In this document: positions 15,851-42,000 of the stretch, piece after piece | How positions within the stretch are numbered: the first letter of the stretch is position 1 | Layout of the letters: each line of letters starts with the position of its first letter | NCBI GenBank assembly: GCA_034231615.1 | Contig: CM067306.1 | Location: 64,135,790-64,199,789, forward strand | DNA: 64,000 bases | Origin: Meghimatium bilineatum | Lineage: Eukaryota; Mollusca; Gastropoda; Stylommatophora; Philomycidae | Direction: 5' to 3' | The notes under the pieces: model-generated | What the model saw: the letters and a program-made list of their open reading frames with translations, nothing else | What the model was told of the DNA's origin: nothing | Databases searched by the model: none | Made by a program: the position numbers and the translations under genes

Positions 15851-16240
15851 AGGATGGGTGTGTCGGGCCATTGTCAGAAATAATGCGATGGCACAGAACA
15901 TTTCCATTCTCTTGACTACATCCTGCTGAAAATCTATAGTAGGATCATTGTCCTGCTACAAGAGAGATTCAGCGGGAGTTTGAGAATGTGTCCTGCTACA
16001 AGAGAGATACAGTGGGAGTTTGAGAATGTGTCCTGCTACAAGAGAGATACAGTGGGAGTTTGAGAATGTGTCCTGCTACAAGAGAGATACAGTGGGAGTT
16101 TGAGAATGTGTCCTGCTACAAGAGAGATACAGTGGGAGTTTGAGAATGTGTCCTGCTACAAGAGAGATACAGTGGGAGTTTGAGAATGTGTCCTGCTACA
16201 AGAGAGATACAGTGGGAGCTTGACAATGAACGATGAAGAT
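15850..16240 (+). mobile_element. SINE A with internal 40-bp expansion (7 copies)
   Basis: The element starts GGTGTGTCGGGCCATTG and runs to the usual 3' segment. From about 15950 the segment GTCCTGCTACAAGAGAGATA...GGGAGTTTGAGAATG is repeated seven times with a 40-bp period. It sits inside the 3' end of the MATH pseudogene. Confidence 0.88.
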
Positions 16241-24195: not shown

Positions 24196-24224
24196 ATAAA
24201 GACCAATAAAATTGACTGCCAAAG

Positions 24225-24372
24225 ATGGATGTGTCAGGCCATTGGTGCAAATAAAATGGTGACGCAATGCATTTCCATTCTCTGGACTACATCCTGCTGG
24301 AAATCTAATAGGACCATAGTCCTGCTACAAGAGAGATCTTGCTGGAGTTTGAGAATGAACGCTGAAGAAGAA
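24225..24372 (+). mobile_element. SINE A copy, close to consensus
   Basis: GATGTGTCAGGCCATTGGTG, GCATTTCCATTCTCTGGACT, CATCCTGCTGGAAATC, GTCCTGCTACAAGAGAGATC, GGAGTTTGAGAATGAACGCT and GAAGAAGAAA occur in order. It is one of the clearest copies and useful for defining the family. Confidence 0.88.
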
Positions 24373-25465: not shown

Positions 25466-25484
25466 TATACTTTTCTATTTCAGC

Positions 25485-25625
25485 AATCATTCTGAAACTC
25501 CTGCTGGATTTCTCTTATAGCAGGACCATGATCCTACTATAATTCCAGCAGAATGTAGTCCAAAGAATAGAAATGTCTTAAGTTGCTGTTTTATTTGCAT
25601 CAATGGCCTGACACATCCGTCCCTG
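25485..25625 (-). mobile_element. SINE A copy
   Basis: The complement has GACGGATGTGTCAGGCCATT, GCAAATAAAACAGC, ACTACATTCTGCTGGAAT and TCCTGCTATAAGAGAAATCC. Confidence 0.82.
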
Positions 25626-36000: not shown

Positions 36001-39000
36001 GTAAAGACGTTTTTCACAAAAAACATATATTTTATAACAAATAAAGAGGGAAAAAATAAGAAAAAAAAATAACTTTCCTTACATATCGAATTCCTGGCAA
36101 CACTGTCAACTAAATCACGTAAATCTGTTGTATTTATGTTCTTTCACTGCGAAATTATCAAAATATAGCCGGGGGAACTGTATAAAACATGTAGATTTGC
36201 AGTAAAATCGTTCTTTGAGCTTAGGCCTAGAGTTATTTTTTCTGCCACTTCAAAATATTCGATATCAAACGTACAAGTCCCCAAACCAGCACGGCATTCT
36301 GTATATTCACTGCTGTGAAACTAAATAACCTAATAATCCATGATTCAATGTTATTTTATTCGAAATACGATGAAATAAAGGTCTGTAAAACCGATCCATC
36401 ATCATGGCATCGTACCGGTGTACAGATGTGGTCAGATTAATTGCTCTTAAACTTTTACGAATAGCCAGCCATTCTCAAAAACGATCATGTCGGAAGTGGG
36501 GGATGTACCGGCTTCGATTGCGCATGTCCCCAGCTATGTGCACGGAGTGTGGTACGTGTAAATCTCACGATAATCTCGCTGGGTGGGACGGCCCGCCATC
36601 AGCGCGCGCGGCCATTTTGTTTTTCGGCAGCTGGATATCATATCGGCTCGGTGAAGGTTAAATCACAATTTAATTCTGTCCAAACGCTAAAAATACTCCA
36701 GGAGGAATCAGTTAATAAGCACTAAATAATTTTACATGATGGTTTGGATTGAGTGACAACTGTATTCAATGACTACAAGGTATGTTTTAGTTTCAAAGCA
36801 ACTACTAACACTAATAGCCTAGTACTAAATGAATAACTCTTACATACAGCAAAACTGCAACAATGGTAATGTTTGTGATTATTTTAAACAAAAAGACAAT
36901 GTCAAAGTTAGATGTGTATGGCCATTGGCTCAAATAAAACGGTGACAACACAGTTCCGTTCTCTAGATTACATCCTGCTGGAAATCCCATACGACCATTG
37001 TCCTGCTATAAGACATCCAGAGGGAGTTTGAGAACGATTGGGAAAATAAAATAGAAAATTAAGCCACATGCGGGAAAAAATAATACTTACTGGTGTTCAA
37101 TCTGAAAATTGAGGTGTCCTGTGAACCAATCATTGAAGAAGTTTTGTTCCACGTTACATGTAGCCTGTAGCTGGAGGTTGAGCCAAGGAAGGGCGGTGTC
37201 ATAGTTAATCTCCATGGGGATGTGATTAGATTGTGCAACCCATGTAAACCAATGGCTCTCTAGACATCTGGATAATAATGTAGAGATTAAACAATGGCTC
37301 TCTAGACATCTGGATAATAATGTAGAGATTAAACAATGGCTCTCTAGACATCTAGATAATAATGTAGAGATTAAACAATGGCTCTCTAGACATCTGGATA
37401 ATAATGTATAGACTAAAAGTTAAGTTATTATTATTAATAATTGGAAAGATGTGTTCCCAGTGAGTAGCTAAAATTCATTACCCAGTGCCAAGTTTTGCCT
37501 TTTACAAATAGAACGAACACACAGATTCAATGTCTCGACAACCAGGCCTCTGCCAAGATGATGACAAACACAAAAACTAGAACTAGAATAGACAAGAATT
37601 ACATTAAAGGAAAGCATGTGTCTATGTTGTCATAGGAAAAATAGATGGAAGTAGAGTTTAACATAAATATAAGCTGCATGCTGGGACACGTAAGTAGATC
37701 ATGTAAATGTAGAGACAGATATTGAGAAGTCAAAGTTCACACAAGACAAAAAACATTACCACAATAACAATAACTGAACTTGTTGGTTGAGAGCAATAAC
37801 AATCACTGAACTTGGTTGAGAGCAATAACAATCACTGAACTTGTTGGTTGAGAGCAATAACAATCACTGAACTTGTTGGTTGAGAGCAATAACAATAACT
37901 GAACTTGGTTGAGAGCAATAACAATAACTGAACTTGGTTGAGAGCAATAACAATAACTGAACTTGGTTGAGAGCAATAACAATCACTGAACTTGGTTGAG
38001 AGCAATAACAATAACTGAACTTGCTGGTTGAGAGCAATAACAATCACTGAACTTGCTGGTTGAGAGCAATAACAATCACTGAACTTGTTGGTTGAGAGCA
38101 ATAACAATCACTGAACTTGTTGGTTGAGAGCAATAACAATCACTGAACTTGTTGGTTGAGAGCAATAACAATAACTGAACTTGGTTGAGAGCAATAACAA
38201 TAACTGAACTTGGTTGAGAGCAATAACAATAACTGAACTTGGTTGAGAGCAATAACAATAACTGAACTTGCTGGTTGAGAGCAATAACAATCACTGAACT
38301 TGCTGGTTGAGAGCAATAACAATAACTGAACTTGTTGGTTGAGAGCAATAACAATAACTGAACTTGTTGGTTGAGAGCAATAACAATAACTGAACTTGTT
38401 GGTTGAGAGCAATAACAATAACTGAACTTGGTTGAGAGCAATAACAATAACTGAACTTGGTTGAGAGCAATAACAATAACTGAACTTGCTGGTTGAGAGC
38501 AATAACAATAACTGAACTTGTTGGTTGAGAGCAATAACAATAACTGAACTTGTTGGTTGAGAGCAATAACAATAACTGAACTTACTGGTTGAGAGAACTA
38601 ATGTTGGAAATAGTAAAATGACATAAGTTTGCATGGTTTAAACATGTAATGTGACACAATTTGCTTTAAAAGATTTACTGAAAGGAATGAATAAGGTGGA
38701 AGAAGAAGAGGTGTATAACTCAGTTAAAATTGACTTTTTACCCCCCAACATACGTAGTAGCCTATTTGTGACATGCATGTCAGGTAACACTGTTGCTATT
38801 CTTTGCTCCCTTTACAAACCCCTGCAACACATTGGCATATTTGAATCGTCTAACTGTACAATTCACTAGTTAAAAGTAATACTGTAATATTTGTGAACTT
38901 TGATCCAGCACATCCACTTTTTCCCCTTAAATTCATCTACTTTTTCTCTTGTTCAAAGCATACGCTTATGTAGATTATTTCACTGAACAGTATCTGCGGT

Positions 39001-42000
39001 CACCAGCTCAGATGACACAGGGATAAATACTATTATTAATGTAATATTGTTACAAGCTAATCTACCAAATAACCAATGAAAAAGAAAGTAATAAACAAAG
39101 GAACAAGGATTTTTTTCTATGTTACAGCCCATCAAGGACCTTTATCAAGAAACAAATATAAACCGGAAACAAATACAAACAGGAAACAAATACACAAAAA
39201 TATTAAATTATAAATGCACAAAGATTTATAATAATTTCATCTCCATGCATCAGAAACAATCTTCAGAGGCAGAGCTTGTTCATTAAAGCTGTTGCTGATA
39301 ACCAATTTTTCCACTTGTGGAGTGATACAGTGGGTAATTCTGTAAAATATGTTGTGTGTTTTACGTAGATCATCCACAAAGCACATATCAGCGTCATCAA
39401 TCTCAAAATCCTACACACTGTTTGAGTCTGTATTGTGGGTGTGGCATGTTCTCAATCTTCTATGTTCGCTCTCTGATAACCAACACGAGAGTTTGTGTGA
39501 TTTCCACCGGGGAGTATGAAGAGCTGTGCTGTAAATTTCACAGCAGATCTGCGTTATTTGGTGCTTTCCAACCCCGCACATATTTTTTCAGCATGTTCTC
39601 ATTCGCTCCTTTCTTCCCAGCATTTAGATAACGTCACTATGGGAAGATGCTGGATGTCATTACAGCCAATATTCAATGGGGGAGATGGCACCTGATGAGT
39701 TATAACTTCATGGATGTGTTTTGTTATATTCTTGTTCATGGGGGCTTTTAGTTTTAAATGTATTTTCTGTGAGTTTCTATAAGATGAGATAATCAACCCT
39801 CCTTGGTTGCTTATTACAACATGCATGGCAAGCTACAGCATTACTATTATTTGTTTCATTTTCTACACAGGTAACCTGAAATTTTGCCCATGTCCGTCTA
39901 CAATACAAGTCTTAACAGTTTGTATGTAAACCTCCACTCTGCAGAGGCCTATTTTGACCAATGGACAGAAAAACACCATCATACGCTATTGCGCGTCACT
40001 ACGAGAGGCTACTCACGTATGTCACCAACTAATGAAAATAACAAAATAGCCTCTGATAGTGACATGTAATTAGGTAGTGGTAATGTTTCTGGCGATAGGT
40101 AACAAAAAAGACAGCAGAGCAGATTATTACATATGGCCAGTTAGGACTTCTGTTGATGGGCGTGAACTTATTCGACCAGTTAGGACTTCTATTATAGATG
40201 GCCATGGATTTTGCTAAAAAAACCAAAAAGATAACTGATTTTCCTATAAAAAAAACCAAAAAGATAACTGATTTTGCTAAAAAAAAACACAAAAAGATAA
40301 CTGATTTTCTAAAAACAAAACAAAAAGATAACTTACCTAAACGAGAAGTAGAAGGCAACAGCACCCCAAAAACCCAACAAGGGCGTATATAGAGTGAAGA
40401 ACTTGACAAAGAAAATCATAACCATCAGTAGATCCTGTGGGATGACACACATACAGTAAATATACAGAAATGTGTACCAGAAATAACGTTCTTTTCAAAT
40501 TAGTTAACAAAATATTACTGATCTCACTACACTCAGGCAGACTCTGGCTGTTCATTTCCTTTTATCAGATGATGGAGGGCAAGCAAGATGCTCAATCAAG
40601 CCCCTGACCTTCACAACAGAATATGCCGTGATGAAAGCTGTCAAGTCTTGACCTGTCCTCCAGGTCGTTCCATGTGATGATGTTCCTCCTTCACAAATGA
40701 AGATGACCACGACATTGGAAAGGAATCAAGTTAGGTTTGATTGTTTGCAGTCATCGGATAGCGAATGAGTCTAATCTGGGCTCTGAAACATCTGTTGCAG
40801 TGTCTGTGGTTCTTCAGATGAGGGAAAACAGCCAGATCTCTCCTTTATTTTTGTTTCTTTTTAAATCATTTCCAATGTTCTATCCTGTCCTTTTAATACT
40901 CACACTGGTCTGACCACGGCTGGACATTCAAGAACTGTGGTTCCCCAAGCAGTCAATCCTGCAGTGCTTGAAATCTTCAATGTGATGATAATGCCACTAC
41001 AATTTCCATCATTTCTCTTCTTTGAATTGTAAGGCTGATAGTTCTTCCATCATAACTCTCCTCCAAGTTGTAAGGCTGATAGTTCTTCCATCATAACTCT
41101 CCTCCAAGTGTAAGGTTGATAATTCTTCCATCATAACTCTCCTCCAAGTGTAAGGTTGATAATTCTTCCATCGTAACTCTCCTCCAAGTTGTAAGGTTGA
41201 TAATTCTTCCATCGTAACTCTCCTCCAAGTTGTAAGGTTGATAATTCTTCCATCATCTCTCTTCTCCACATTGTAAGGCTGAAAATTCTTATAACATGTA
41301 AACGTCCCTTGTCATTTCAATAACATTTATGGGGAATAAGTCCATGAGAATGTGATTAAAGTCGATGAATATCGCTGACAATATTTTTGCCAGGACATGC
41401 TGGTGTTCGAGGAAATAAATGTGGGATGACTTGCTGGTATGGCTACCATAGGGGATCACAAAAGCAATGGACGGAGTAGATTTGTTGAATGTTCTTAGGG
41501 AATATGAATGATGTAACTAATGCTTGTGAATCTGAAACCCTTATCAAACTACAGGATTATGTTATTAAGGGTGTGGCTTAACAAGAACATTATGCAGGTG
41601 ACCAGAGGAGTGGTTAGTAGCTATACTTTTAGGTATATATGAAGACATCCAATCCTTCATGGAATGATTCAATGTGCAGTGAGAATGATCATTGGACTAA
41701 CTAGCTAGCTAACTTACCATCCATGCTTTCCTAGAGAAGATGTATTTGAATAACATAATCTGGAAGTAGACTGGAAACAGGAGTGGAGGTCCAACTGTGA
41801 ATAAAATATATAAAATGCTCATGTAGGTGAAGTTTTAAAAATATAATCTCAAAAAACAAATGATTGACATCTCTGGTTTTCTCATACATGTCATCTGTCT
41901 CAACAGCACAACATACTGCCTGCTGACAATATCACTATGTGCATGTAAGTGCTAATTGCTAAAGACCTCAGAATAATGCAAATCTCCACCATGACCCTCA

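Follow-up and report, generated by a model that had tools for sequence, protein, structure and literature searches.

The desaturase gene and its repeated acceptor

The window, i.e., the whole stretch of 64,000 nucleotides analysed here, contains a front-end fatty-acyl desaturase gene in which all ten introns have GT and AG ends (Table 1). Front-end desaturases are recognized by three histidine boxes, the last of the form QxxHH, and the spliced protein carries HDFGH, HYQHH and QIEHH, together with an N-terminal cytochrome b5 domain whose HPGG motif is encoded in exon 1. Pfam matches to this product were strong for both Cyt-b5 (6.8e-21) and FA_desaturase (4.9e-36). Exon 9 specifies CLESHWF...QIEH and ends two bases into the codon for the last His. 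Among solved structures, 58 sequences matched the full-length protein up to an E-value of 1, all within the cytochrome b5 part, and exon 9 alone matched none up to an E-value of 0.1; an NCBIfam search likewise returned no family up to an E-value of 0.1.

The acceptor of exon 9 lies within a tandem array that is far beyond chance in itself (TRF period 42, 96% matches). Read on the minus strand, each unit consists of 24 intron bases ending in AG followed by the first 18 bases of exon 9, which gives four acceptors with first exon bases at 37267, 37309, 37351 and 37393, each followed by the identical 18 exon bases. Compared over 42 bases with the innermost copy, the outer three differ at 0, 1 and 2 positions; the AG stands at the identical place in all four (i.e., the splice signal is kept), and the copy at 37351 carries ATTATCTAG. 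Elsewhere in the window, the unit found only chance-like matches of 10-12 bases. Joining exon 8 (40434-40337) to the four acceptors in turn yields predicted proteins of 443, 457, 471 and 485 aa with a terminal stop only, each step adding a 14-residue peptide repeat. An earlier note on this DNA had described a four-copy, 42-bp array on the exon 9 acceptor of a desaturase, with these four acceptor positions, one variant copy, and a stop-free reading from every upstream acceptor. All of this is borne out by TRF, the unit comparison and the spliced frames, and its gene identity, exon number, frame and repeated peptide were right as judged from the spliced protein and Pfam.

Table 1. Positions of the desaturase gene, the repeated acceptor and an adjoining array in the window.
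Feature	Position	Strand	Basis or remark
Front-end fatty-acyl desaturase gene, 11 coding exons, 443 aa	32947..62428	-	Splicing, Pfam
Exon 8, ending TTTAG/gtaagt	40337..40434	-	First A of exon 9 completes Arg
Exon 9, canonical acceptor, first exon base 37267	37091..37267	-	Frame and phase, three paralogous exons
42-bp minisatellite, 4.1 copies, across the intron 8/exon 9 acceptor	37245..37417	-	TRF and unit comparison; mirage-type junction array
Extra unit 1, in-frame acceptor, first exon base 37309	37268..37309	-	Spliced frame, acceptor scoring, unit comparison
Extra unit 2, acceptor CTAG, first exon base 37351	37310..37351	-	Lowest of the four scores
Extra unit 3, outermost acceptor, first exon base 37393	37352..37393	-	
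33-bp array, 3.7 copies	40216..40333	-	Starts at the fourth base of intron 8; adjoins the exon 8 donor without crossing it

Repeats of other kinds surround this locus. Four arrays occupy 1148 of the 3069 bases of intron 8, and a dispersed element of ~140 bp (36900-37040) recurs many times in the window (24217-24358, 964-1087, 15859-15986, 25470-25617 and others), its longer matches being 68-80% alike. At 15949-16228, a 40-bp part of one copy of this element has been expanded to seven tandem units.

Ancestral acceptor and splice-site choice

We searched the exon 9 peptide against the window's own genome (1.61 Gb, 32 contigs) and obtained five matches, corresponding to the window itself, three paralogous exons (on contig C8, 86% identical; C7, 68%; and C9 at 59.49 Mb, 61%) and one broken fragment. 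The three paralogous exons have their acceptor immediately before LESHWF and in the same phase as exon 9, and none of them has a tandem copy across this acceptor; the 3.2 kb surrounding the C8 copy are free of arrays by TRF. Since the paralogues splice, as predicted, directly before LESHWF, 37267 is the ancestral and canonical acceptor, and the other three were added to it.

In a matrix built from the nine other acceptors of the gene, which score 6.0 to 12.6, the four sites score 6.3 (37267), 6.3 (37309), 3.2 (37351) and 6.1 (37393), these values being a rough guide only because an AG at 37498 scores 6.6 though its use reads into a stop. The exon 9 acceptor is thus weak for this gene. The AG-free stretch measures 28 nt at each of the three inner sites, with a branch-point-like TTAAT at -20, and 17 nt at the outermost, where the branch-point-like motif, TTAAC at -27 (about 37420), lies outside the repeat. 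Each unit could hence be a self-contained 3' splice site. With a branch-point-like motif of its own before each acceptor, the upstream acceptors should be able to compete, and leaky use of them appears quite possible from these signals. In competition between duplicated splice sites, as studied by Reed and Maniatis, proximity and exon sequence reportedly both matter. Under the AG exclusion or scanning rule, as described in the available part of PMC1431707, splicing uses the first suitable AG downstream of the branch point; by this rule, the branch point of 37267 should be in the adjoining upstream unit, and the TTAAT at -20 of this acceptor sits within extra unit 1. RNA structure hiding the upstream acceptors was considered and rejected, the fold being ordinary (z -0.84, with 36 of 200 shuffles at least as stable). 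The array was also considered as a NAGNAG tandem acceptor, which was rejected on its 42-nt spacing.

Chance and recurrence of junction arrays

To judge the position of the array, we counted merged arrays with a period of at least 10. The window holds 53 of these (16.1% coverage) and the gene span 18 (12.3%), and in eleven 10-kb pieces of the genome, taken at round coordinates from seven contigs, 51 arrays account for 11.3% of bases (0 to 27% per piece). Under random placement, 2.46 of the 20 splice junctions would fall within an array, vs. one observed, and in 6,225 of 20,000 circular shifts one or no junction did so; exon bases are strongly avoided (23 overlapped vs. 164 expected). That an array falls on a junction of this gene is therefore no more than chance. 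The frame can be assessed in a similar way, by enumerating all duplications of 20-60 bp that extend at least 8 bases to each side of the gene's ten acceptors. Overall, 34.8% of these are in frame and 23.7% both in frame and open (2,434 of 10,250), so that the in-frame, open state of the window's array is close to chance, a coincidence of a kind expected about once in four.

Exon edges were scanned in four desaturase paralogues (38 exons within the fetched stretches, i.e., 11, 10, 10 and 7) and in 20 P450 exons taken from 93 Pfam matches. The edges of the three other desaturase genes were placed by hand from tblastn, their first exons lying partly outside the stretches; the P450 exons were chosen as partial, multi-exon matches rather than at random, and their edges are those of the Pfam matches, junctions beyond which were missed. 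Besides the window's array, this small sample held six clear junction-spanning duplications, three in one desaturase paralogue (hereafter paralogue B; C9, about 59.46-59.50 Mb) and three in P450 loci. The C8 and C7 paralogues had no junction duplication in their 17 exons, with array coverage around them of 3.8% and 18.7%, respectively. Tandem copies of splice junctions thus recur at several sites in this genome, a general finding worth following.

Every one of the eleven exon peptides finds a match in paralogue B, though the last match is weak (E 0.033), that to the second peptide is confined to its first part, and no intron separates the fifth from the sixth; the gene model of paralogue B is the putative one given by these matches. 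Its exon 7 acceptor, at about C9:59480241, lies inside an old 47-bp array (L011:2048-2272; C9 about 59480047-59480271), in which one of the four upstream copies reads TTTCAA (junction AG lost), one AAG and two CAG. Its exon 9 donor, at about C9:59485528, begins a 30-bp array of 9.6 copies (L011:7511-7790; C9 about 59485510-59485789), where either reading through the first donor or using a later one would lead to an immediate stop, and its exon 4 donor is repeated once, 49 bp further along. The P450 cases are donor repeats of 44 bp (L042, 5.2 copies), 23 bp (L046, 2 copies) and 89 bp (L040, 2 copies). Not one of the six is both in frame and open. A weaker P450 case (L049, 21 bp, 2 degenerate copies, likely an acceptor) does have both properties. 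At another three P450 loci (L034, L036, L050), the match has an array no more than 60 bases away that does not cross its edge. With the window's array added, the in-frame, open state is found in 1 of 7 clear cases (2 of 8 with L049), and among acceptors alone in 1 of 2 (2 of 3 with L049) against 24% expected, counts that are too small to show a departure from 24%.

Two further observations were made during these searches. Near paralogue B, there is a second exon 9 piece, which has an internal stop; after it come 45 copies of a 27-bp, donor-containing unit (L011:9004 to L012:about 270), and this piece was left out of the count of junction cases. The only COX1 match found in the genome is a fragment at L033 (C2, about 121989805-121990428) that, being inside a 122.7-Mb contig, is a nuclear copy of a mitochondrial gene; its 14 ATA, 3 AGG and 5 TGA codons are sensible under the invertebrate mitochondrial code (AGG = serine). 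Amphioxus genomes are close to 0.5 Gb in size, and AGG is not known from amphioxus mitochondria; given these codons and the genome size of 1.61 Gb, the host is probably a protostome rather than a cephalochordate.

Interpretation and known systems

Taken together, we consider it most likely that the array is a neutral minisatellite of the type called mirages in amphioxus, with 37267 as the main acceptor and the others silent or used at a low level. A local tandem duplication would have copied about 24 bases of the intron end and 18 bases of the exon start, and the unit would then have multiplied within intron 8 of this minisatellite-rich genome. The copies precede the true exon start, so that the protein would stay intact as long as the innermost acceptor is used, and 37267 presumably dominates over the others. 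The array, the gene model and its frame, the ancestral acceptor, the minisatellite density and the further junction duplications are shown by the analyses above, and we infer the order of these events, the acceptor in use and the neutrality of the array; the matrix does not favour 37267, three of the four sites scoring 6.1 to 6.3, which speaks against this reading.

In the main alternative, the upstream acceptors are used appreciably, producing desaturases 14, 28 or 42 residues longer, with copy number tuning the isoform mix between individuals. The three upstream acceptors are in frame and free of stops, each has a YTNAY at usable distance, two of the three score like 37267, and AG scanning as outlined in PMC1431707 would work in favour of an upstream acceptor, provided that the branch point used is upstream too. 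However, 23.7% of such duplications should be in frame and open, as against 1 of the 7 clear cases here, donors included. The insert would also stand just before the conserved LESHWF, is absent from the three paralogous exons, and splits the Pfam match: the canonical form matches FA_desaturase in a single stretch (125.2 bits) and the form longer by 42 in two (110.6 bits). Furthermore, the amphioxus mirages are reported not to disturb splicing in the portions available of PMC3087553 and PMC3902484. Appreciable use of these acceptors is thus unlikely. The earlier note had viewed the array as a minisatellite creating in-frame isoforms; the in-frame, open potential stands, but the production of isoforms is unsupported, given a frame near chance, none of the six other cases being in frame and open, and apparently undisturbed splicing in amphioxus. 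A broader version, in which this genome, probably that of a protostome, has junction minisatellites in many places and the desaturase does use its repeated acceptors, so that a copy-number-variable array sets the length of this membrane enzyme in 14-residue steps, seems to us quite unlikely.

Near-identical tandem units are hard to assemble, which favours an assembly error in copy number, the true allele having fewer or more units. One amphioxus mirage was apparently assembled aberrantly in the draft genome (PMC3087553, in its available text), but the copies here are not all identical (0, 1 and 2 differences) and similar arrays lie at other junctions of the same assembly, so that such an error is highly improbable. 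That selection keeps the array as a splicing buffer or a step to a new intron is hardly credible: although intron gain has been proposed from mirages (PMC3087553) and inferred by tandem duplication in Drosophila (PMC2891723) in the sections of these articles at hand, the 0, 1 and 2 differences of the outer copies are far too few to show constraint and the RNA fold is ordinary (z -0.84).

Near-identical splice sites in tandem amount to a natural experiment in how the spliceosome selects one copy among several. In the present sample, reading frame and homology place the protein-preserving site at the last copy of acceptor arrays and at the first of donor arrays, and in both it bounds the original exon. 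If these sites are the ones used, this would be easier to reconcile with exon definition than with simple scanning from the intron side. The present sample holds in-frame, out-of-frame and stop-containing versions, for comparison within one RNA-seq set.

Among known systems, the closest are the amphioxus mirages, tandem repeats over exon-intron boundaries described, in the accessible part of PMC3087553, at both exon ends of globin genes (those with mirages being BflGb6 and BflGb9) and in Adh3, where units measure 10-72 bp. One mirage there has 6 and 3 units on the two haplotypes of one gene, and the Adh3 data and globin RT-PCR suggest that regular splicing is undisturbed; PGBD5 and troponin C are further amphioxus mirage genes (PMC3902484, as far as its text was available). 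As in these descriptions, the window's array spans a junction, keeps the AG/GT signal and has a unit (42 bp) within the Adh3 range, and both acceptor and donor sides are affected in this genome; in structure, the array matches a mirage. Unlike them, its host is probably no cephalochordate, its four acceptors are all in frame and open, and it is known from DNA alone. NAGNAG tandem acceptors are similar in that neighbouring in-frame acceptors could add codons, but here they are 42 nt instead of 3 nt apart, with a separate upstream sequence for each. Beyond amphioxus, our literature search, with most subscription journals outside its coverage, brought up junction-spanning minisatellites only in human, where variable internal tandem repeats in segmental duplications have 30-bp units and four repeats on average (PMC2812944, from the portion available). 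As described there, these too are minisatellite-sized, alter gene structure and in some cases lie at an exon-intron boundary; they were found by transcript-genome comparison and linked to new introns, whereas ours come from genomic sequence. If the host of the window is a protostome, mirages are not restricted to amphioxus.
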